From: Lachnospiraceae bacterium | Lineage (GTDB): Bacteria > Bacillota > Clostridia > Lachnospirales > Lachnospiraceae | Reading direction: 5' to 3' | DNA: 48,117 bases | Assembly (NCBI GenBank): GCA_017615545.1 | Contig: JAFZZY010000013.1 | Coordinates: 101,675-149,791 of the forward strand | Shown: positions 1-46,726 of the stretch, in pieces | Layout: each line of letters begins with the position of its first letter | Position numbering within the stretch: position 1 is the stretch's first letter | Notes under the pieces: model-generated | Seen by the model: only the letters and a program-made list of their open reading frames with translations | What the model was told of the DNA's origin: nothing | Databases searched by the model: none | Made by a program: the position numbers and the translations under genes

Positions 1-1021
1 AACGGTTCGCATCGCTCCCGCCATAAGTGGTGAGTAACTCTGGCCTTCGCTCCGGCATTCGTTCCTCCACAACTGTGCAAAAACGTTTTACAACTTCACT
101 TTCATGCGACACCGAGTAGGACCTTATATGTTCGTTCACGGAAAATGCGATCTTCCCGCCCAGGCTTTCTGCCGCCTGTTCGAACACTTCCCGAATCTCC
201 TGCGCTGTCTGAAGCGCTTTTTCATGATTCAAGGACCGGATCTCGCCTTCGATCTCTACATTTTGCGGAACGATGTTACGTCCGCTTCCTCCGCGGATGG
301 TCCCGAAGTTAACGGTGAGATCACTCTGAACTCGTCCTACTTGGATCTTCGAAAGCGCATCCGCCGCGATGCTCAAAGCATTGACCCCGAGTTCCGGTGC
401 AAAGCCTGCATGCGAAGCACGGCCTTCGATTCCTATCTTAAGGGAAAGAATGGAAGGCGCCGCGGTGGCCACCCTGCCGACCGGCCCGTCCAGATCCAGC
501 ACATAACCCTGCTTTGCCTTCAGTCGTTCAAACTCGACGAAGCGACTGCCCTCACAGTACGGTTCCTCAGCGACCGTGATCAGGATCTCGATATCCGGAT
601 GAACAACTTCATTCTCATGGATCACCGTGAGGGCTTCCAGAATGGAGACCAGCCCGGATATATCATCCGCTCCCAAAACGGTCGTGCCGTCCGAGGTAAT
701 GGTCCCGTCCTCAAGGAGGATCGCTTTCTTACCCTTACCGGGACTTACCGTATCGAAATGGGAAGAAAACAAGATCGGATCCCCGGGCTTTGTTCCCTTC
801 AGGTAGGCATAAATGTTGGATGCCGTCCCATTCGAATCCGGATGAAGCGCTGCCAGTTTATCTCCCGCCTGATCTTCTTCCACCCGAAGCCCCAGAGCCT
901 TGAGTTTCTCTTTCACATATTCAGCGATCTTTCTCTCATGAAAGGACTCGGCGTCAAACGACGTCAGCCGAAAGAACTCTTGCAGGATCCTGTTACGATC
1001 CGTTTTATATAAGTCAGCCAT
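1..1021 (-). CDS. M20-family metallopeptidase, peptidase T-like (3' end beyond the window)
   Basis: Read on the minus strand from ATG at 1021 (RBS AGGAGA, good spacing) this is an uninterrupted 340-codon frame that runs off the left edge. It shows the co-catalytic zinc signature of M20 peptidases: SSHFDTVSPG (His and first Asp), GADDISGL (bridging Asp), AEEPYCEGS (general-base and ligand Glu pair), DLDGPVG (second-zinc Asp), and GGSDANR near the edge, a conserved C-terminal block of PepT-like proteins. The final zinc His lies outside the window. The family cleaves small peptides in the cytoplasm, liberating amino acids; PepT-like members run about 370-380 residues, so roughly 30-40 residues are missing. 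A terminator and a Met/Cys-codon leader ORF lie just upstream and may control it. The plus-strand open frame over this gene is only an antisense shadow. Family call firm; substrate unknown. Confidence 0.88.
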   Translation of the reverse strand, partial: MADLYKTDRNRILQEFFRLTSFDAESFHERKIAEYVKEKLKALGLRVEEDQAGDKLAALHPDSNGTASNIYAYLKGTKPGDPILFSSHFDTVSPGKGKKAILLEDGTITSDGTTVLGADDISGLVSILEALTVIHENEVVHPDIEILITVAEEPYCEGSRFVEFERLKAKQGYVLDLDGPVGRVATAAPSILSLKIGIEGRASHAGFAPELGVNALSIAADALSKIQVGRVQSDLTVNFGTIRGGSGRNIVPQNVEIEGEIRSLNHEKALQTAQEIREVFEQAAESLGGKIAFSVNEHIRSYSVSHESEVVKRFCTVVEERMPERRPELLTTYGGSDANR

Positions 1022-1051
1022 AGCATTTCTCCTGAACTTTTTGCAAAAAAT

Positions 1052-1077
1052 AGCCCGAGACGTTTTCGTCCCGGGCT
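1052..1077 (-). terminator. Rho-independent terminator / attenuator before the peptidase gene
   Basis: On the minus strand an 11-bp stem (one G-T pair) with an AAAA loop is followed by ATTTTTTG. It sits between the 34-codon leader ORF and the peptidase start at 1021, so any transcript from the promoter at 1243-1271 must read through it. The GCCCGGG of its 5' arm (1070-1076) is exactly complementary to CCCGGGC inside the leader ORF (1150-1156), which makes an alternative antiterminator pairing possible. Confidence 0.8.
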
Positions 1078-1106
1078 TATGTATAACTGAATGGATCATA
1101 TTTGGA

Positions 1107-1211
1107 TCACAAAAGGCGCACATAAACAAACGCCCCAGCCATACTCTTCGCCCGGGTGTGATACATGCACATACACATGACCTGCTTCTGATCGATGATA
1201 GCTTTCGGCAT
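1107..1211 (-). CDS. 34-codon ORF, candidate Met/Cys leader peptide
   Basis: ATG at 1211 follows AAAGGAGG with 8-nt spacing, a strong RBS, and lies about 30 nt downstream of a consensus promoter. The 34-codon product has Met-Cys-Met-Cys-Met at codons 12-16 followed by Tyr-His. The stop is 30 nt before a Rho-independent terminator, and the next gene encodes a peptidase. This is the layout of a ribosome-mediated attenuator: stalling on the Met/Cys codons would leave CCCGGGC (codons 19-21) free to pair with the 5' arm of the terminator. It could instead be a real small protein; I recognise no family. The RBS, terminator and complementarity are seen in the sequence; the regulatory role is inference. 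Confidence 0.6.
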   Translation of the reverse strand: MPKAIIDQKQVMCMCMYHTRAKSMAGAFVYVRLL

Positions 1212-1242
1212 CTTGTGTGCCTCCTTTCGTTTCGTTGTGGGT

Positions 1243-1271
1243 ATAATATCACCATTTACCTACCGTGTCAA
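1243..1271 (-). promoter_or_regulatory. Sigma-A promoter for leader ORF and peptidase gene
   Basis: Minus-strand TTGACA (1266-1271), 17-bp spacer, TATTAT (1243-1248). The -35 box lies inside an interrupted palindrome, TTACCTA (1256-1262) and TAGGTTA (1272-1278), a plausible repressor site. Confidence 0.75.
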
Positions 1272-1313
1272 TAGGTTATTTGAAGTTTTTTCATTTTTTG
1301 TTGATTTACCTAC
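1254..1313. promoter_or_regulatory. Candidate Rrf2 operators between divergent promoters
   Basis: The 10-mer ATTTACCTAC occurs twice, at 1254-1263 and 1304-1313, exactly 50 bp apart. The first copy overlaps the minus-strand promoter and forms half of an interrupted palindrome; the second lies within the -35/-10 spacer of the plus-strand rrf2 promoter. ACCTAC-type half-sites are plausible for Rrf2/IscR/CymR-type proteins. Binding by the adjacent regulator is inference. Confidence 0.45.
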
Positions 1314-1386: not shown

Positions 1387-1782
1387 ATGATCTCAACCAG
1401 AGGACGTTATGCTTTACGCGTCATGATCGACTTAGCACAAAATAATAACGGCAGCTACATCCCACTTAAGGATATCGCTGCCAGACAGGAAATATCTAAG
1501 AAATATTTGGAGATCATCGTCAAGGACATGGTCAATGCAGGCCTGATCCTCGGCGCCAGCGGTAAGGGCGGCGGTTATCAGCTCTGCCGCAAACCCGAAG
1601 AATATGTCGTGGGCGAGATCCTGGAGCTGATGGAGGGAAGCCTCTCTCCCGTTGCCTGCCTCGCAGACAAAAACTATGAATGTTCCCGGCGGGCCGCCTG
1701 CAAAACATTGCCCATGTGGGAAGAGTTTGACACGCTCGTGCATAACTACTTTTACGGAAAAAAACTCACAGATCTGTTATGA
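1387..1782 (+). CDS. Rrf2-family transcriptional regulator (IscR/CymR-like)
   Basis: A 131-residue protein of the usual Rrf2 size, starting at ATG 1387 behind AGGAGGGA. The N-terminal winged helix is typical (MISTRGRYALRVMIDLA, then YIPLKDIAARQEISKKYLE as recognition region and the GASGKGGGYQL wing). Cys91, Cys99 and Cys105 form a C-x7-C-x5-C cluster in the place where IscR binds a [2Fe-2S] cluster (C-x5-C-x5-C there), so Fe-S sensing is plausible; Cys67 is extra. Known family members control Fe-S assembly (IscR) or cysteine metabolism (CymR). In many clostridia such a gene precedes iscS-nifU-mnmA; here iscS and nifU are absent and mnmA is convergent. The divergent leader/peptidase promoter shares its candidate operators. 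Which subfamily it belongs to is not settled. Confidence 0.9.
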   Translation: MISTRGRYALRVMIDLAQNNNGSYIPLKDIAARQEISKKYLEIIVKDMVNAGLILGASGKGGGYQLCRKPEEYVVGEILELMEGSLSPVACLADKNYECSRRAACKTLPMWEEFDTLVHNYFYGKKLTDLL

Positions 1783-33361: not shown

Positions 33362-33436
33362 TCAACGGTTGCAGCTGACTGCCATTTTACAGGCTCTAGA
33401 GCTTTGCGTCGCAGCCTTTCGACTGTTTTGCCCTTT
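33362..33436 (-). ncRNA. Cyclic-di-GMP-I (GEMM-I) riboswitch
   Basis: The minus strand reads AGGGCAAAACAGTCGAAAGG, then CTGCGACGCAAAGC, a variable hairpin (TCTAGAGC), and closes with CAGTCAGCTGCAACC. The GNRA-type GAAA loop on a 5-bp stem, the invariant GACGCAAAGC and the closing GCTGCAACC line up segment by segment with the Vc2 and clostridial aptamers. A consensus promoter lies 12 bp upstream and a terminator 5 bp downstream, so it should control transcription of the zinc-ribbon protein and the nuclease. Whether ligand turns genes on or off cannot be told by eye. Confidence 0.9.
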
Positions 33437-33447
33437 ATTTATTCTAA

Positions 33448-39229: not shown

Positions 39230-42200
39230 TTACTTGTTAAATACAAACCTTACGGTCAATTCTGTTGTTTCGAAGGTATCCGTGAACTTCGGAATGTAGG
39301 TGAAGACAACGTCCACACTGTTTCCGGTGTAGTCGGCAACCTTTGAGTTCGCAAGTTTTGTGTCTTTGAACTTGTAGGTTCCTTCGGTCTGATACTGCCA
39401 TAGTGCCCCGAATAGTTCATCTTGAGCTTCGGTCCATCCTTCACGATCCCACCAACGATACCAGTCTTGGCATGTCTCTGTATAAGGGTATATCAGTGAC
39501 CATCTTATAGCAACCTGACCAAATGTCGAAAGATCACCGCTGAAATAATCTTTCAAGCCCAAAGGTTCTCCGTTATCCGGCCCATAGTGTTTCAGAACTG
39601 TCTCCACATCAACGACGAGCAACGTTGCTCCGATCATATCTGCCTCTTCTTCTCCTACGGCATTCACGACTGCGAGAGGCACTTTGATAACCTCATCCTT
39701 CGACTCATGGCAGCGATCACACTCATAATGCTTGTTTCCGACTTTCCAGTCTGTGCAGACATCATTACTGTCTATTACCGGTTCCGCAGGCGTGCTGCTC
39801 TTCAGTTTCCAGTCATGTCCGAGAGCCGCCACCGTGACTGTCTTCGTCTGCTTTGCAAACGCAGTGTTCTTAAACGTAGCGGTATATTCGGTCTCACCGG
39901 CTGTCGTACAGGTCACCGTCGACTTAACGTTAGCTGTTGCATTGGCCGTTTCTTCCTCGAATACTGACGGATCCGTGCGGCTCGTGCGTTTCGCAGTTAC
40001 CTTCGAGTTATCTGCAGACCAGGTATAGGTCGGCTCACTCCAGTTCGGATTCAGTTTCTCAATGTTCGTAATGGTCTTAGACTGTGCGGTAAATGCCGGA
40101 TTGGTAAATGTTGCGGTGTAGGTGGTATCACCCATTGCATCCAGCGTCGCAGGTTTCGTGACGGCCGATGTCGTCTTCACGGTCTCGGTCTCCACATGCG
40201 ACTTATCGTTCTTACAGGTGCGAGTAGCCGTTACCGAACTGTAATCTGCAGACCATGTGTAGGTCGGCTCGCCGAAGTCATGTCCGGTCGGCGCCAGATC
40301 CTCGTAGAAGTACTGCTTACAATCTGTGCACTGACGTCTCTGTCTGCCGCGGGTCTCGCATCCGGGCTTCGTTACGACTTCGAAATCCGAGTAATGCAAG
40401 TGATTATTCGGGTTCTTCTCGGTCTCGACTTCCTTCTTCTCTCCGCATACAGAGCAGGTGTAGGTGCGAACGCCGGGCTTCGTACATGTGCCTTCCTGCG
40501 TCAGCTCCCAATTCTTCCAATCGTGAGAACCGGCAGCCTTAACGACTTCTTCCTTCGTCTTTCCGCAAACAGAACACTTGTAAATATCTAAGCCATCCGT
40601 CTCACATCCGGGGTTCTTTTCATGATGATCGAATACAAAATCATGCGAACCGATCTTCTTTTCGACGTTATCAAATGTCTTGCCGCATTCCTTACAGGTG
40701 AAGCGTACAACACCATCGGTTTCGCAAGACCTCTCTGAAATGACTTTACCTTCGTCCCAAGTGTGGGCATCCGGATCAGTATCGCCGACGACTTCCCATG
40801 AGTAGTCGCAGTTGATACACTGCCATACGATCTTGCTGTGGATCGTACAGGTCGCCTTTACTTCCCTCGAAGGATCCATTTCTGCTTCATGAGGAAGCGG
40901 GGAGATAACAGAACCGTATTTTAAACGCACACCACATCTGCTGCATATCACGTCGCCGGTATATCCCCAGGATTGACAGGTCGGTTCTTTCACACCTTCC
41001 AAATGTGTGATGGAATGCTGGCCATTCGGTTTTGTTGCATGTCCGTCTTCAAGCTTAACACCGCAATCCTTACAGTAAACATCTCCGGAATATCCTCCGA
41101 CGCAGGTCGGCTCGATATAGTCGCGCAGTTCCGTATTGCCGGTATGGTTTTCAGGGTCGAGTTCCAGTTTTCTCTCGTAAGTCTTATCGACCGCGCCACA
41201 ATAGTCACAACGTCTTCCCATAATACCATGGGTCGCGCAAGTGGATTTGGATACTTCGTATTCACTAAAACTATGTGCATTCAGATCGATCGGGATCTCC
41301 GTACCCTTACCGATCAGGCCGCAGACGGTACATACCTCACCCTGACGGCCCGGCGACGAACAGGTCGGCTCGGTTCTGCCACCCTCTTGCGCCCAAACGT
41401 GTTTATGCCACGAAGCGATAACTCGTACAGAACCGCGAGGCATGATGAAATCATCCTGCATGACCGTTCCATCTTCAAACTTCCATACCAGATCCAGTAC
41501 ATTTCCTTTATCGTCTTTCTTCTCAGGGAGTTCCGGACGTTTCGGCTTCGTACCGATCTCACAGGTCACGTCATGATCTTTGCCATCATAACTCCAACTG
41601 ATCGTCGAGAAACCGATCGTCTTTCTTCCGTAGAGCGTCAGTTCGTTTGTATTGGGCATCTCTGCCTTCAGATCCAGTTCGCTCGAACGATCATCCTTAG
41701 AAGTACGCCAAGCGTACATATAGTCTCCACTGGTCAATGATTCCGGTACGTTTTGGTAAATGCGCTCGCCGACGCGAACGATGCCCTCGGCACGTTTTCC
41801 GTCATCCGTGATCCAAATGACCTTACGCTCCTCACCCTGATAGATCGCATGGAGGTAGATCTCGCCCGGGACGCGGCTATCGCCGTTGATCTCGTCTCCG
41901 TCATCTGTGAACCAACCGACAAATGTACATCCGTCCTTCTGGAGCGATTTCGTCGTGAATTCGAGTTTCTCACCGATGCGCTGCGTCGTCGTGTCGATCT
42001 CATTGTCCCCATCCATCCAGTGGAGTTTGCATTCCTTACCGGTCAGGACACCGATCACGAGCACATCCGACACGATCTTCGTGTCTGATTTCACAGGTGT
42101 CAGGCCGCTAAGATCTCCTTCTTTCACTTTCGTTACGACATCGTATGCCAGTCGGCACAGATTCTCGTTATGCGACGACTTGTAACGGATCTCGCCCGTG

Positions 42201-45200
42201 CTATTTACATAGTACCATTCGAGGGTATAATCATCCGTACGGTAGTTCTGAATAGCCTCGGGGATATATTCCACCATGTTCTGGTTCTGCAGCATGTAGG
42301 TGAATTTCGATGTGGTGTAATTGCCCCAACGGGTCGCAACATTAAAGTATTTATCCGGAGTTCCGTCACAACGGATCACCTGATCCTTCTCGGGATCATA
42401 AGCGATCCAAAGCGAAGGCACGTCGATCTTCAGGAAATGGACCTGAATGACCGTCTCGTTATCACGCAGAGTGAAATAGGTCTTACCGTTTTGCTCCTCG
42501 ATCGCCTTCTTATTGTTATCGAAATAGTCCCAATACAGCGAACTGTAATACAACAGTTTTGTATGAGCCAGATCCCAAACCTTGCAAGCTTCATCCGCGA
42601 TCTTCTTATTCTCTTCGGTCTTATTCTCCAGATATAAGCCCCACTTCGAATGCATCCTCAACCGTGCGGTTTCTTCTTCCTTGCAAGCTTCATTGAAGAG
42701 CGTGCTCAATTCCTTTTCATCCGGGAAACCGAGGTGGATGAGACGATAGCCCGGGAAGAGTCCTACACAGAACTCAGGGGTAATGTCCACGTAGCAGCGA
42801 ACGCCTTCGTAACCACTTACAGTACCATTGCCTGCCAGTTCCCAGTCACGGATATCTTCGCCGTTGTTGTAGTTCTTTTGAACATAATATTCCACACGTG
42901 CAGTCTTCTTGGTACCCTTCCAGTGAACATATACGGTACGCTGGAATTTCCGTGTGTTGAAACCAAATGCGTGGTTTTTATAGGTGAATACGACTTTTCC
43001 CCAAAGTTCGTTCTTCGTGCTGTCCAGCGGACAAACGTAGATCTCATTCGTGCCCGGCAGGTACTGGAACGAAGATGCTCCCTCAACGACTTTGCCGTTC
43101 TTTCCGGTCAGGTCAAAACACTCGACCGTGAAATTATCCTCATGGTTCTGCGTCCAGGTACGCTGCGTAGCGAGGATCAGACCGTTGGTATTATTTCCAT
43201 CCGTGCCTGTGATGATGTTTGCGGTATGCGTCACCGCGCCCTCCGTGCAGACATGTTTGGAATCCATGTTCTTCTCTGAAGTTTTGCCACTGTTGAGCGC
43301 CATCAACTTCATATCAAAGAGTTTATCGTCAACTTTTACCGTATTCTGCCCGTCCGGGATCTCTACCGACAGTTTCGGATCGTCCGTCTTGATCACAAAA
43401 TCCAACGGGAAGAACTCGCATCCCAGTTTCAGGAGCGGAGTTTTGGAATTATACAGGCTCCAGCTCTTAGAAGCTGTGCCAAAAGCAACCTGAACTTTCA
43501 CGCTGATATCGGTGTAGATACCCATCTCGAAATAGAGGGAACCACACGCTTCGAAAATCGCGTCCTGGCTTCCCGACTTCACATAGGAAACATACAGGAA
43601 ACCATAGAGTTCCGCATAAGCGCCGGCCGATGCTACAACACCGACAGAGTCCAGATCGGTACTGAAGACACCGACACGCAGATCAAGGCTGACGCCTGCG
43701 CGAACGCCGATCATACCGAATGCATAGAAATCGGCGCGGAACTCATTCGCGAGTTCTTCAACGCTAGAGCCCAAAGGCATGGAACTGACGTTATTGCTGT
43801 TCAGTTCGGGACCGCCGCCCCAGATCTTTGCGAGGAAAGCATAGGAATAGTGCTTGGCGTTCTCATAGCTGACGCCCGCTCCGAGCATCGCATTGATCTT
43901 CAGCGAAACATTGAAATTGATCTTCATTCCCGCATGGATAATGCCCGCGGGATCGATCGGAATATCAAAGCTTCCCATGTCCACATCCACGAGTTTGATA
44001 TACTTTGCGTCATTCGACAGCATTCTCGAATACTTTGTGGGCAGGTCGCCGCCGACGCCCGGAGACGTGAACTCCTGGCTCTGAGGTTTCTTGCTTCCGT
44101 TGTCATTGTTATTACTAGTGCTCCAGCCATGGCCGTTTTCTTTATTCTTCTCTTTATCGCTGGACTTCTTCAGGAGGTCTCCGCCCTTGATGAGTAACTG
44201 GGCTGCAGCCGTACGGTCTTTCAGAGCATTCGGGTCGCCGTTATCCAGGAAGCCGCCGACCATTTCATTCCAGTCCTGACCCGCCTTCGGGTTCGGAGCG
44301 TTTTTCGTCTGCGCTGTAACAACAACGCCGAAGCCGGTATAGGTGCCGGCATCCAGGCCTGCATCAATGTAGAGGCTGGAGGTACGGCCATGATATACGT
44401 TTCTCTTCACCTTTACGGAAGGTGTCAGAAGGATTTCCTGTTCCAGAACGATGGCAGGTTGGATATCCAGGGTTCCTGCATCGCCGATCTTAACAGAAAT
44501 GGTAAGCGTTACTGCCGCTTCCGCGCGGAGGCCCTTCTTATCCTTGAAATGGGACAGTTTGTAGTCCAACGTAAAGCTAAAGGAAATATCACTGACAGTT
44601 ACCACACTCGCGTCGTCAGCCAACAGGCGGATATCCTCCAGTGTCATATCCTGTCCGTTGGTCTTGATGATCATGTTCTTCAGCTCGTCGCCATGCTCGA
44701 GAGAAGCAAAATCGATCTCATCTCCCGTCAAAAGGGACATGAACAGCTCGGTCGTCTCGTCGACGATACCACTCTGCTCGATCTGCTGCTTCATCTGCTC
44801 CTCGATCTTCTTGCTGTCAACTTCGTTCATCACGATATCAACTTCGGAAAGTTTCGTCTCCAGCATGATATCGGTACCGTTTAACTTCTCATCCGATATG
44901 ATCTCATACTTAAATGTCGTCGAATGGTTTGTGTTGTTTGCCGGAAGCTCGTCTTCGCTGATCTCCGTGATCTTTCCGTACTTCGTCACCTTATAATCGG
45001 CACCGCCGAAAGTACCGGTATAGAACTCAATGAGATCACCGACCTTGATGACGGTCGTCGCATCGAGGCCATAAGCGCGGTATGCTTCGTTTGCAAAATT
45101 CAGTTTGGAATTCTCAACCGTTACGGTGCCTGCTGCGGAGCCGTCGTCCCGGATCGGGATCACGTTATCCAGAGCCAGGATGTTCTCTAGGCCGGCATAT

Positions 45201-46726
45201 TCGTACGCATACGTGCCGTCCGCCTTCACTTCGGTGATCTTGACATAGGCAACATCTCCGTCGCCCAGACCGGTCTTCGCGTCGAAGCTACCCTTGTGGA
45301 CAGCGATCACATTGCCCACGGAGAATTTCTCAGCGCCCTTATAGGTCATCACGCCCGAGCCGGTGTTCTCGTTAGCCTTCACATCGCCGTTTTCATCGGT
45401 CTCGACGTTCAGGATGCCACGGAACTCAACGCCTTCGACCTGCGTCGCATTCACATGGATCACGCGGCTGTCAATGCTGATATTATTGACTTCCTTATGC
45501 GGAATGGTAATGTTGTATTTTACCACTTCTGCCGCGGTGACTTCGCCATCATATACGAAACGCAGTTTTGCGGTATCGTTGATGCCTACCGTATACAGAG
45601 TTCCCGTCTCCCATTCGCCCTGAGCAGGCGTCAGGATCCAGTGGTCTTCACGGAGTGTCTTGTTACCGTAGAGGAGGTCTTCCAACATCAAGACCTGTTC
45701 TACAGAAAGGTGAAACTCCTCACGCCAAACGCGCTCCAAGCTGTCGTCTTCCGACAGGCCGTAACGCGCCAGGAGATCCGCCTCCGTCGTGGTGGCAAAA
45801 TCGATACCCAGCGTCTGGAGTAACTCATACGTATCGTCGTCCAGTTCGAGGAAGTTCTGATCATCTTTATCCAGATAGGTCTCCAGACTAAAATGATTCA
45901 GGATAACGCTTACGGCGTCCTCCGGAAGATCGATATAAGATCTGCTCTTATCATTTGAAAGCTCCGTAAGAAGTTCCTTCAGCGACTGAGGCTCACCATT
46001 CTCGAGTATCTCTACCGCGGTCCTCTTGGCATCTCTCTCGCTCTTCTCGACCAGATTCCAGACTGCGTTTGCAGTCTCCTCATTCAGCCCCAGTTCCTCA
46101 AGCCACGCAAGTTCTTCCTCCTCACGCAGGGAGCGCAGGTTAAACTCTACCGTGCTGCCCGCCATGCTCGAATTTACCAGAGTGATCTTCTTCAGGACCT
46201 CTTCCTTCGTCAAACCGTAGGAAGCAAATTCGATGGGATAATTCGTAGGAACGTCCTGCTTTGTGACATAGTCGTAACCCTTCACGCCCGACATATCTTC
46301 AGTCGCTACGAAGCGAGGATACAATGTGAGATCCTTCGTGATCTCATCCTCAGCGTTCGCCCGCTGTGTTCCGGCGGCATCATATGTCCACGACAGGAAC
46401 ATCGCGCTGTCGCGAGTCGCTTCATCCAGGTCTCCGACCTTCGTGCCCGACTTAACCTTCACCTGCTCCGGCAGGGTGGTATTCACCCGATCCGGTTCGG
46501 TCGCCGATTCGGGCAATGCGAAACTGACGACGTAGTCACCGTCTGCGTCCGTCGGTCCCTCCGGCTTCGTCGCCTCGGTTGCGTTAGCCACATCGGATGC
46601 ATTCGTAGGATCTGACGGATCTACGGTCGGTTTCTGTTTGCCGAAAATAACGAACAGAACCACGCCGATCACCGCTGCCAGCGCTACTGCCGATGCAACA
46701 ATAATTGGTGTGCGCTTAGACTTCAT
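39230..46726 (-). CDS. Giant (2498-residue) surface protein with InlB-type repeats and ten Cys-rich units
   Basis: ATG 46726 overlaps the protease stop by 4 bp (ATGA) behind GGAGG. An N-terminal membrane anchor (residues 7-29) and a Pro/Thr/Glu-rich linker are followed by an InlB B-repeat-like segment (about 65-140, LFLSWTYD ... LTLYPRF), a long region with few landmarks (140-1560; includes ISYTT-type beta strands and an N-terminal helical part), a second B-repeat-like segment (about 1565-1640, TFVGWFTDDGDEING), and from about 1775 to 2335 ten units of C-x9/11-C-x2-C(G) separated by His/Gly spacers. The C-terminal 150 residues are ordinary beta-rich sequence without LPXTG. Cys triplets plus His suggest metal binding. 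Predicted extracellular; adhesin-like or structural role is a guess. Function unknown. Confidence 0.85.
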   Translation of the reverse strand: MKSKRTPIIVASAVALAAVIGVVLFVIFGKQKPTVDPSDPTNASDVANATEATKPEGPTDADGDYVVSFALPESATEPDRVNTTLPEQVKVKSGTKVGDLDEATRDSAMFLSWTYDAAGTQRANAEDEITKDLTLYPRFVATEDMSGVKGYDYVTKQDVPTNYPIEFASYGLTKEEVLKKITLVNSSMAGSTVEFNLRSLREEEELAWLEELGLNEETANAVWNLVEKSERDAKRTAVEILENGEPQSLKELLTELSNDKSRSYIDLPEDAVSVILNHFSLETYLDKDDQNFLELDDDTYELLQTLGIDFATTTEADLLARYGLSEDDSLERVWREEFHLSVEQVLMLEDLLYGNKTLREDHWILTPAQGEWETGTLYTVGINDTAKLRFVYDGEVTAAEVVKYNITIPHKEVNNISIDSRVIHVNATQVEGVEFRGILNVETDENGDVKANENTGSGVMTYKGAEKFSVGNVIAVHKGSFDAKTGLGDGDVAYVKITEVKADGTYAYEYAGLENILALDNVIPIRDDGSAAGTVTVENSKLNFANEAYRAYGLDATTVIKVGDLIEFYTGTFGGADYKVTKYGKITEISEDELPANNTNHSTTFKYEIISDEKLNGTDIMLETKLSEVDIVMNEVDSKKIEEQMKQQIEQSGIVDETTELFMSLLTGDEIDFASLEHGDELKNMIIKTNGQDMTLEDIRLLADDASVVTVSDISFSFTLDYKLSHFKDKKGLRAEAAVTLTISVKIGDAGTLDIQPAIVLEQEILLTPSVKVKRNVYHGRTSSLYIDAGLDAGTYTGFGVVVTAQTKNAPNPKAGQDWNEMVGGFLDNGDPNALKDRTAAAQLLIKGGDLLKKSSDKEKNKENGHGWSTSNNNDNGSKKPQSQEFTSPGVGGDLPTKYSRMLSNDAKYIKLVDVDMGSFDIPIDPAGIIHAGMKINFNVSLKINAMLGAGVSYENAKHYSYAFLAKIWGGGPELNSNNVSSMPLGSSVEELANEFRADFYAFGMIGVRAGVSLDLRVGVFSTDLDSVGVVASAGAYAELYGFLYVSYVKSGSQDAIFEACGSLYFEMGIYTDISVKVQVAFGTASKSWSLYNSKTPLLKLGCEFFPLDFVIKTDDPKLSVEIPDGQNTVKVDDKLFDMKLMALNSGKTSEKNMDSKHVCTEGAVTHTANIITGTDGNNTNGLILATQRTWTQNHEDNFTVECFDLTGKNGKVVEGASSFQYLPGTNEIYVCPLDSTKNELWGKVVFTYKNHAFGFNTRKFQRTVYVHWKGTKKTARVEYYVQKNYNNGEDIRDWELAGNGTVSGYEGVRCYVDITPEFCVGLFPGYRLIHLGFPDEKELSTLFNEACKEEETARLRMHSKWGLYLENKTEENKKIADEACKVWDLAHTKLLYYSSLYWDYFDNNKKAIEEQNGKTYFTLRDNETVIQVHFLKIDVPSLWIAYDPEKDQVIRCDGTPDKYFNVATRWGNYTTSKFTYMLQNQNMVEYIPEAIQNYRTDDYTLEWYYVNSTGEIRYKSSHNENLCRLAYDVVTKVKEGDLSGLTPVKSDTKIVSDVLVIGVLTGKECKLHWMDGDNEIDTTTQRIGEKLEFTTKSLQKDGCTFVGWFTDDGDEINGDSRVPGEIYLHAIYQGEERKVIWITDDGKRAEGIVRVGERIYQNVPESLTSGDYMYAWRTSKDDRSSELDLKAEMPNTNELTLYGRKTIGFSTISWSYDGKDHDVTCEIGTKPKRPELPEKKDDKGNVLDLVWKFEDGTVMQDDFIMPRGSVRVIASWHKHVWAQEGGRTEPTCSSPGRQGEVCTVCGLIGKGTEIPIDLNAHSFSEYEVSKSTCATHGIMGRRCDYCGAVDKTYERKLELDPENHTGNTELRDYIEPTCVGGYSGDVYCKDCGVKLEDGHATKPNGQHSITHLEGVKEPTCQSWGYTGDVICSRCGVRLKYGSVISPLPHEAEMDPSREVKATCTIHSKIVWQCINCDYSWEVVGDTDPDAHTWDEGKVISERSCETDGVVRFTCKECGKTFDNVEKKIGSHDFVFDHHEKNPGCETDGLDIYKCSVCGKTKEEVVKAAGSHDWKNWELTQEGTCTKPGVRTYTCSVCGEKKEVETEKNPNNHLHYSDFEVVTKPGCETRGRQRRQCTDCKQYFYEDLAPTGHDFGEPTYTWSADYSSVTATRTCKNDKSHVETETVKTTSAVTKPATLDAMGDTTYTATFTNPAFTAQSKTITNIEKLNPNWSEPTYTWSADNSKVTAKRTSRTDPSVFEEETANATANVKSTVTCTTAGETEYTATFKNTAFAKQTKTVTVAALGHDWKLKSSTPAEPVIDSNDVCTDWKVGNKHYECDRCHESKDEVIKVPLAVVNAVGEEEADMIGATLLVVDVETVLKHYGPDNGEPLGLKDYFSGDLSTFGQVAIRWSLIYPYTETCQDWYRWWDREGWTEAQDELFGALWQYQTEGTYKFKDTKLANSKVADYTGNSVDVVFTYIPKFTDTFETTELTVRFVFNK

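Follow-up and report, generated by a model that had tools for sequence, protein, structure and literature searches.

A leader peptide gene with Cys codons and the intrinsic terminator that follows it, upstream of a PepT-like peptidase gene of a Lachnospiraceae bacterium, very probably act together as a ribosome-mediated transcription attenuator sensing how much cysteinyl-tRNA is available, and a response to cysteine is predicted. The element lies in a window of 48,117 nucleotides, i.e., the whole stretch of DNA that was analyzed, and relatives of it were collected from the genus, from other Lachnospiraceae, and from further Clostridia. The case is built on a Cys codon kept where searches left it free, on compensatory changes in a competing RNA helix, and on the sulfur metabolism genes that follow most of the relatives.

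The element in the window

An earlier note on this DNA had described a promoter, a 34-codon open reading frame (ORF), a Rho-independent terminator, and the start of an M20 peptidase gene, and this layout was borne out on the minus strand (positions 1275 to 1021; Table 1). Its coordinates were also confirmed, as was the exact complementarity on which it relied: CCCGGGC (1156 to 1150) is the reverse complement of GCCCGGG (1076 to 1070). The leader stop codon is separated from the terminator stem by 29 nt. GCCAU, the partner of segment M in relatives, is absent from the window element, and a replacement helix, GUAUGGCUG:CAGUUAUAC, is predicted there between positions 1144 to 1136 and the stretch preceding segment 3.

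Table 1. Features of the probable attenuator element and its surroundings in the window
Feature	Position	Strand	Evidence
PepT-like M20 peptidase gene, first gene of the operon, continuing past the window start	1-1021	-	TIGR01883, 301.7 bits (above the cutoff of 274.25)
Peptidase Shine-Dalgarno sequence AGGAG (1033-1029); gene start at 1021	1029-1033	-	Sequence
Intrinsic terminator, 11-bp stem (1077-1052) and T6 (1050-1045)	1045-1077	-	
Segment 3, AGCCCGGGAC; 5′ side of the terminator stem, can also pair with segment 2	1068-1077	-	
Segment 2c, CGCCUU, a short way 5′ of the leader stop codon	1113-1118	-	
Segment 2b, GGGGCG; partner of 2c (GGGCGU:GCGCCU in the folds) or, with its 5′ neighbors, of segment 2	1131-1136	-	
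Segment M, AUGGC; partner in relatives is GCCAU immediately 5′ of segment 3	1138-1142	-	
Segment 2, CACCCGGGCG; partner of segment 3 (antiterminator, 7 bp in the window) or of 2b	1149-1158	-	
Leader codons 12 to 16, ATG TGT ATG TGC ATG (Met-Cys-Met-Cys-Met), predicted control codons; the kept part is Cys	1164-1178	-	
Leader ORF of 34 codons, peptide MPKAIIDQKQVMCMCMYHTRAKSMAGAFVYVRLL	1107-1211	-	Frame kept across the family
Leader Shine-Dalgarno sequence AAAGGAGG	1220-1227	-	Sequence
Promoter TTGACA (1271-1266), 17-nt spacer, TATTAT (1248-1243), extended TG -10	1243-1271	-	11 of 12 matches
Operator-like sequence CCTATTGACACGGTAGG overlapping the -35 box; candidate site for an Rrf2-type regulator	1259-1275	-	Pattern CTATTGACANNGTAGG
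Divergent Rrf2 family regulator gene	1387-1782	+	TIGR00738, above cutoff

The leader peptide had no match in NCBIfam and Pfam. Rfam searched at gathering score over the window returned no family at the element, and neither did a permissive search (E values up to 10, positions 1000 to 1390) or a search of nine relatives; the T-box and S-box models had no match at the element, be it that of the window or those of these relatives. Weak window matches to ROSE_3, NsiR1, STnc240, VrrA, CRISPR-DR46, and Atu_C9, each below its own gathering score, were taken as chance. Within its own genome, the pattern ATGGCTGGGGCG gave 14 matches with up to one mismatch, exact only at the element itself, and a sequence-only RNA model built from 14 elements (R1) found the element and two further matches at E values of 0.19 and 0.28; there is therefore no second copy. 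Elsewhere on the minus strand, the window holds a c-di-GMP-I riboswitch (33367 to 33442, 55.9 bits) and the gene for a predicted protein of 2,498 residues (39230 to 46726), by eye a large surface protein with CxxC-rich repeats.

Leaders of the genus

The peptidase is present in five of six genus genomes, and all five genes are preceded by a leader and a hairpin with a pairing-capable arm. Comparison of upstream regions, the check that had been suggested, upheld the leader and hairpin (5/5) but not the alternating Met/Cys run, which occurs only in the species of the window and in L005 (2/5). What the five leaders have in common is V-M-C..M..TR....AGA. Pairing is shifted in L007 with matching changes on both sides (CGGGCACA:TGTGCCCG), and a C-to-U change in L008 yields a G-U pair. 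RNAalifold on the five members returned a leader hairpin and the terminator. The T-run after the hairpin is poor in two of the five (L006 and L008; CTAAAATTATG), and in both the hairpin is followed by CUAAAAUUAUG where a T-run would be expected. Because CCCGGG is self-complementary, the 7-bp pairing within the genus alone is thin evidence, and it is the wider family that makes a convincing case for it.

The sixth genus genome (G003) gave no peptidase match at the cutoff used and carries the same element before a gene for a MetQ-like lipoprotein, with a run of N letters in between (L045). Ten PepT-like genes from outside the genus (L009 to L018, 37 to 48% identical) showed no such element in an anchor-and-arm scan; in one of these, L017, the match begins at a contig end.

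The wider family and its hosts

A protein profile of the five genus leaders matched 213 of 397 family genomes at E values of ≤1, mostly noise. Fourteen of these loci were read and nine were kept (L035 to L040, L045, L046, and L048), L042, L043, L044, L055, and L061 were dropped on reading, and a later scan of all loci added L052. R1 matched 24 of 392 order genomes at E values of ≤0.01, and three matches (L204 to L206) were rejected on reading. Most elements came from a DNA pattern run over genome contigs, which required Cys at position 13 and gave at least 121 matches in at least 120 stretches, representing at least 117 unique elements; one to two matches were expected by chance in the whole collection, as estimated from letter counts. 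A family scan requiring a start codon and at least 8 of 10 complementary letters gave at least 151 elements, of which at least 134 remained after removal of those more than 90% alike. The window element, L005, and L006, with 7-bp pairing, fall below this arm cutoff and are omitted from the family counts.

The hosts listed are Lachnospiraceae, Saccharofermentans, Ruminococcaceae, and other Clostridia, mostly metagenome-assembled genomes and many of them from ruminants. Isolates among the listed carriers include Butyrivibrio proteoclasticus P6B7 (L108) and [Clostridium] citroniae WAL-17108. One host, that of L146, is labeled Succinivibrio, the sole such case among those listed and probably a binning fault. 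In L081 (1047 to 1202), a single contig carries the core twice, at a spacing of 127 nt that includes N letters, which represents either tandem attenuators or an assembly fault.

Genes downstream of the relatives

A readable downstream ORF follows 144 of the listed elements, and 7 more have no ORF on the contig. The largest group, 92 of 144, belongs to a cluster of Cys/Met metabolism pyridoxal phosphate (PLP) enzymes (representative, TIGR01326), and in 83 of these a motif test recognized the start of O-acetylhomoserine sulfhydrylase. A second cluster, made up of MetQ/NlpA-like lipoproteins together with cystine-binding-like fusions, accounts for 37 more; 6 are ABC permease or ATPase genes, and 2 are Fe-alcohol dehydrogenases; a relative of glutamate-cysteine ligase, a sulfate-binding protein, cysK, a short-chain dehydrogenase/reductase (by eye), and an unknown gene occur once each. 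These clusters were annotated by their representatives, several of which scored below curated cutoffs. The peptidase, on which the earlier note had centered, turned out to be a side case, with 2 of the 144 (and 3 more from the window, L005, and L006, all just under the arm cutoff) against 92 PLP enzymes and 37 lipoproteins. As annotated, the genes behind the listed relatives would mostly serve the supply of sulfur amino acids.

Predicted translation of the leader and the control codon

Several features of the sequence suggest that the leader is read as protein. In 109 of the 134 listed elements, an ATG with at least six Shine-Dalgarno letters ahead of it stands in the frame of the core; the corresponding counts for the other frames are 0 and 2. 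Spacing between start and core changes by whole codons, and whole codons are also added inside the core (MCCCRM, MCMMRM, and MCMCMCRM).

Conservation of Cys was judged only from searches other than the main pattern, in which it had been fixed. A search with CGAATGNNNNNCTCCCGGGC, which left the codons before the anchor open, matched 24 times among 397 family genomes, in 23 of them (1 match in the reversed-pattern control), and 10 times among 391 class genomes, in 8 of them (3 in the control). One of these 34, L223, had no Shine-Dalgarno sequence, arm, or Cys codon and was rejected as chance. All 33 credible matches have an in-frame leader preceded by a Shine-Dalgarno sequence and at least one Cys codon, UGU or UGC, within four codons of the anchor, in the contexts MCC, MCW, MCM, MWC, WCC, CMC, MMC, and CCM. 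The arm reaches at least 8 of 10 in 31 of the 33, and L230 and L234 keep the leader and Cys with an arm below this value. Over all searches without a Cys requirement, Cys was kept in 40 of 40 nonredundant elements, a count that comes partly from profile searches, which favor the consensus. Across the family, Trp or Tyr may take the first Cys position, and the second may be occupied by Trp, Met, or Phe. Met and Cys had both been named as control codons. The free search (33/33) upholds Cys but not Met, which is missing before the Cys codons of L232 (AAT TGT TGT ATG) and alternates with Cys in only two of the five genus leaders. On this evidence, the constant member among the predicted control codons is Cys, and Met and Trp vary.

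Near the end of the leader, CGATGT (Arg-Cys) occurs in 61 of the 134 listed elements, against 2.2 expected from shuffles. It is in frame in 56 and stands directly before the stop codon in 34 (e.g., L188, L192, and L036); the leader of the window ends otherwise. This Arg-Cys pair may provide a second Cys control codon.

RNA pairing and covariation

Segment 2 is complementary to an arm about 100 nt downstream over 10 of 10 letters in 84 of the 117 listed unique elements and over 9 of 10 in another 23. Among the 134 listed nonredundant elements, 1,303 of 1,340 cells of the segment 2:3 helix are Watson-Crick pairs, compared to a maximum of 1,269 in 2,000 permutations (which, here and below, ignore relatedness), and a partner of at least 8 of 10 was reached by 16 of 402 shuffled segments. 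RNAalifold, run on the 129 of 134 elements with an arm distance of 85 to 130 and no N letters, returned helix 2:3 alone, and the same 129 hold 23 cells changed on both sides, spread over five pairs (e.g., CTCCCAGGCA with TGCCTGGGAG). A terminator-like hairpin with a T-rich tail, the 5′ side of which is the arm, is found in 117 of 133 listed relatives, a count without its own shuffled control. The compensatory changes in the family bear out the antiterminator competing with the terminator that had been proposed from the window, and the predicted exclusion of one by the other is supported by covariation between segment 2 and the 5′ arm.

The two pairing segments of the original proposal both take part, but further segments (M, 2b, and 2c) are also involved. 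Segment M pairs with the sequence before the arm (AUGGC:GCCAU) over 5 of 5 positions in 76 of the 134 listed elements (permutation maximum, 65), two of its five pairs singly exceeding every permutation, and a full match over 6 of 6 positions between 2b and 2c, in the last part of the leader, occurs in 79 of 134, compared to at most 72 by permutation. The choice of M, 2b, and 2c followed inspection of the sequences. The outer helix 1:1′ and helix 2:2b are conserved and gave no covariation, their 5′ side being fixed by the search.

Proposed switch

The following sequence of events is predicted. Under a shortage of cysteinyl-tRNA, the ribosome would be held at the Cys codons, and segment 2 with the RNA downstream of it would stay free; 2b would pair with 2c and segment 2 then with segment 3, blocking the terminator and allowing transcription of the operon. 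With enough cysteinyl-tRNA, translation would proceed to the stop codon, where the ribosome would cover 2c. In that state 2b would pair with segment 2, and segment 3 would be freed for the terminator, ending transcription.

For the 134 listed elements, the nascent RNA was folded as far as segment 3 in three states: a ribosome on the Cys codons, a ribosome at the stop codon, or none. In folds that precede segment 3, the mean probability of 2:2b is 0.27 with the ribosome on Cys, 0.59 with the ribosome at the stop codon, and 0.54 without a ribosome, and that of 2b:2c is 0.71, 0.12, and 0.23, respectively. The difference in 2:2b between the stalled and stop codon states is significant (Wilcoxon P = 4.5 × 10−17); a shift of more than 0.2 goes in the expected direction in 79 of the 134 elements and in the opposite direction in 4. 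For the window element, the probability of 2:2b is 0.026 when stalled, 0.83 at the stop codon, and 0.23 without a ribosome. Shuffling of all sequence after 2b reduces the switch effect from 0.32 to 0.08.

With segment 3 included and segment 4 (the other side of the terminator stem) still out, equilibrium means for 2:3 are 0.98 when stalled, 0.88 at the stop codon, and 0.94 without a ribosome, with 26 of 134 elements higher by more than 0.1 when stalled and 1 lower. Since 2:3 wins at equilibrium in nearly every ribosome state, the switch must be kinetic. The model would thus require that 2:2b hold long enough, and equilibrium folds alone do not prove the switch. The stalled-ribosome mechanism put forward from the window accordingly stands in part: it gains further helices and fits the folds before segment 3, but equilibrium folds with segment 3 hardly discriminate between its states.

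Alternative explanations

The reading closest to the one favored here is the same attenuator responding to Met, or to Met and Cys together, as the earlier note had it. Most elements have a Met codon ahead of the Cys block and a further one in the anchor, and many downstream genes are concerned with methionine synthesis or uptake; yet the search itself demanded the second Met of every element, Met is missing ahead of the Cys codons in L232, and it is Cys that was kept in 33 of 33 free-search matches without being fixed. We consider a Met response unlikely. Chance, in the form of a terminator standing alone between an unrelated small ORF and the operon, could draw on the self-complementarity of CCCGGG and the frequency of such words in terminators. 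It would have to produce compensatory changes in five pairs and an element that recurs in several families of Clostridia, when just 16 of 402 shuffled segments reach 8 of 10, and is exceedingly improbable.

Two other explanations dispense with codon reading. Nucleotide conservation is strong even at synonymous places and the leader is structured, as would be expected of a metabolite-binding riboswitch (for cysteine, homocysteine, S-adenosylmethionine, or O-acetylserine) with a core readable as an ORF by accident. Such a riboswitch is nevertheless very unlikely, given the Shine-Dalgarno-preceded ATG in frame in 109 of 134 listed elements (0 and 2 in the other frames), the whole codons added within the core, the lack of an Rfam family at the element in the window and nine relatives, and the pairing with segment 3, which accounts for much of the conserved sequence. 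Conservation of the core MC.RM...RA....AG at the peptide level might instead point to a nascent chain that arrests the ribosome on sensing a small molecule from the tunnel. However, the residues that would occupy the tunnel with the ribosome at the core vary in sequence and number, and beyond the core the conserved residues are what segments 2 and 2b encode, which makes an arrest peptide, if anything, a shade more improbable still than a riboswitch. Attenuation through Cys codons thus remains the reading that we prefer.

Operon, divergent regulator, and operator-like site

In the operon, the peptidase gene is followed by a GNAT/cystathionine-lyase reading frame and a PatB-type C-S lyase gene; cysK comes next, with promoter-like sequence of its own. 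The GNAT/cystathionine-lyase frame is a single one (L003:4803-6626, minus strand) that joins a GNAT acetyltransferase part to a cystathionine gamma-synthase/lyase part. The gene context assigns the operon to sulfur supply. The recovery of sulfur amino acids from peptides, which the earlier note had inferred for the peptidase, is no more than plausible in light of the rest of the operon.

The divergent regulator passed only the Rrf2 superfamily model: it scored 86.3 bits with the CymR model NF047409, below the curated cutoff of 195, and was also below cutoff with the IscR model TIGR02010. In the genome, CTATTGACANNGTAGG occurs exactly at two places, the -35 box of the leader and cysK, and with one mismatch it precedes a gene for a cysteine desulfurase that is followed by IscU-like sequence (G000:C59:6576-6591, L249; named by eye). 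Allowing up to two mismatches gave 13 matches in the genome against 24 for the reversed control and thus no excess. A related motif lies upstream of 107 of the 134 listed nonredundant relatives. A site for an Rrf2-type regulator over the leader promoter is likely on these grounds, and an operator over the -35 box would probably add a second layer of control. The site before the cysteine desulfurase gene suggests that an Rrf2-type regulon may join cysteine and Fe-S supply.

Relation to known systems

In the trp, his, and leu attenuators of enterobacteria, a leader peptide carries control codons and the position of the ribosome picks antiterminator or terminator. The clostridial element has in common with them the leader control codons and a choice, here predicted, by ribosome position, and it differs in its Cys codons, its extra segments M and 2c, a core strongly conserved across genera, and a probable Rrf2-type operator. 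Transcription termination at Firmicutes sulfur genes is controlled by Cys T-boxes and S-boxes; the physiological job is the same, and the clostridial element has no T-box or S-box match in Rfam.

Cys-codon leaders have been described in other phyla. In the report on uORFC-8-2 of Rhodobacterales, 145 examples of a predicted Cys attenuator are placed exclusively before cysS, with an intrinsic terminator and two tandem Cys codons, which are usually codons 14 and 15 of the upstream ORF (Brewer et al. 2021, PMC8632094). uORFC-8-2 belongs to Alphaproteobacteria and cysS, whereas the clostridial element precedes genes of sulfur biosynthesis and uptake; cysS was not found among the annotated representatives of the downstream clusters, and the hosts are nearly all labeled Clostridia. 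In Actinobacteria, short ORFs with Cys codons precede cys operons, with Cys runs near the stop codon; they are reported to have no conserved terminator hairpin, and Rho is suggested (Seliverstov et al. 2005, PMC1262725). By this account, the Cys-codon ORF is common to both, and the terminator hairpin is on the clostridial side only. Firmicutes attenuators for other amino acids include the His leader of hisS/hisZ in bacilli (Naville and Gautheret 2010, PMC2965389) and the Leu attenuator peptide of Staphylococcus aureus ilv (Kaiser et al. 2018, PMC5794164), which are set apart from the present element by the amino acid and the genes.

A survey of the open-access literature on Cys leaders, attenuation, and riboswitches found no published title or abstract describing the element. 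The sequences thus point to a Cys-codon attenuator family that is apparently undescribed so far and widespread in Clostridia.

Implications

More speculatively, and as a possibility that we take seriously without yet favoring it, a class of cysteinyl-tRNA-sensing elements may govern much of the Cys and Met acquisition in Lachnospiraceae and related Clostridia. Its members would have a six-part switch (segments 1, 2, M, 2b, 2c, and 3/4), a three-way-junction antiterminator, and an Rrf2-type operator as a second gate. In about 4 of 10 members, a second Cys checkpoint would be provided by an in-frame Arg-Cys (CGA-UGU), which mostly stands immediately before the stop codon.

The control of sulfur amino acids in Firmicutes is usually told in terms of T-boxes, S-boxes, and CymR. 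A large family of classical leader-peptide attenuators for Cys would bring to rumen and gut Clostridia a mode of control that this picture lacks. Its signature, ATGTG..CGAATG..CTCCCGGGC..TGCCCGGGAG, could be used to map Cys regulons, and the family marks many small ORFs as probable leaders. It would also offer a system for testing how ribosome position sets RNA folding outside enterobacteria.
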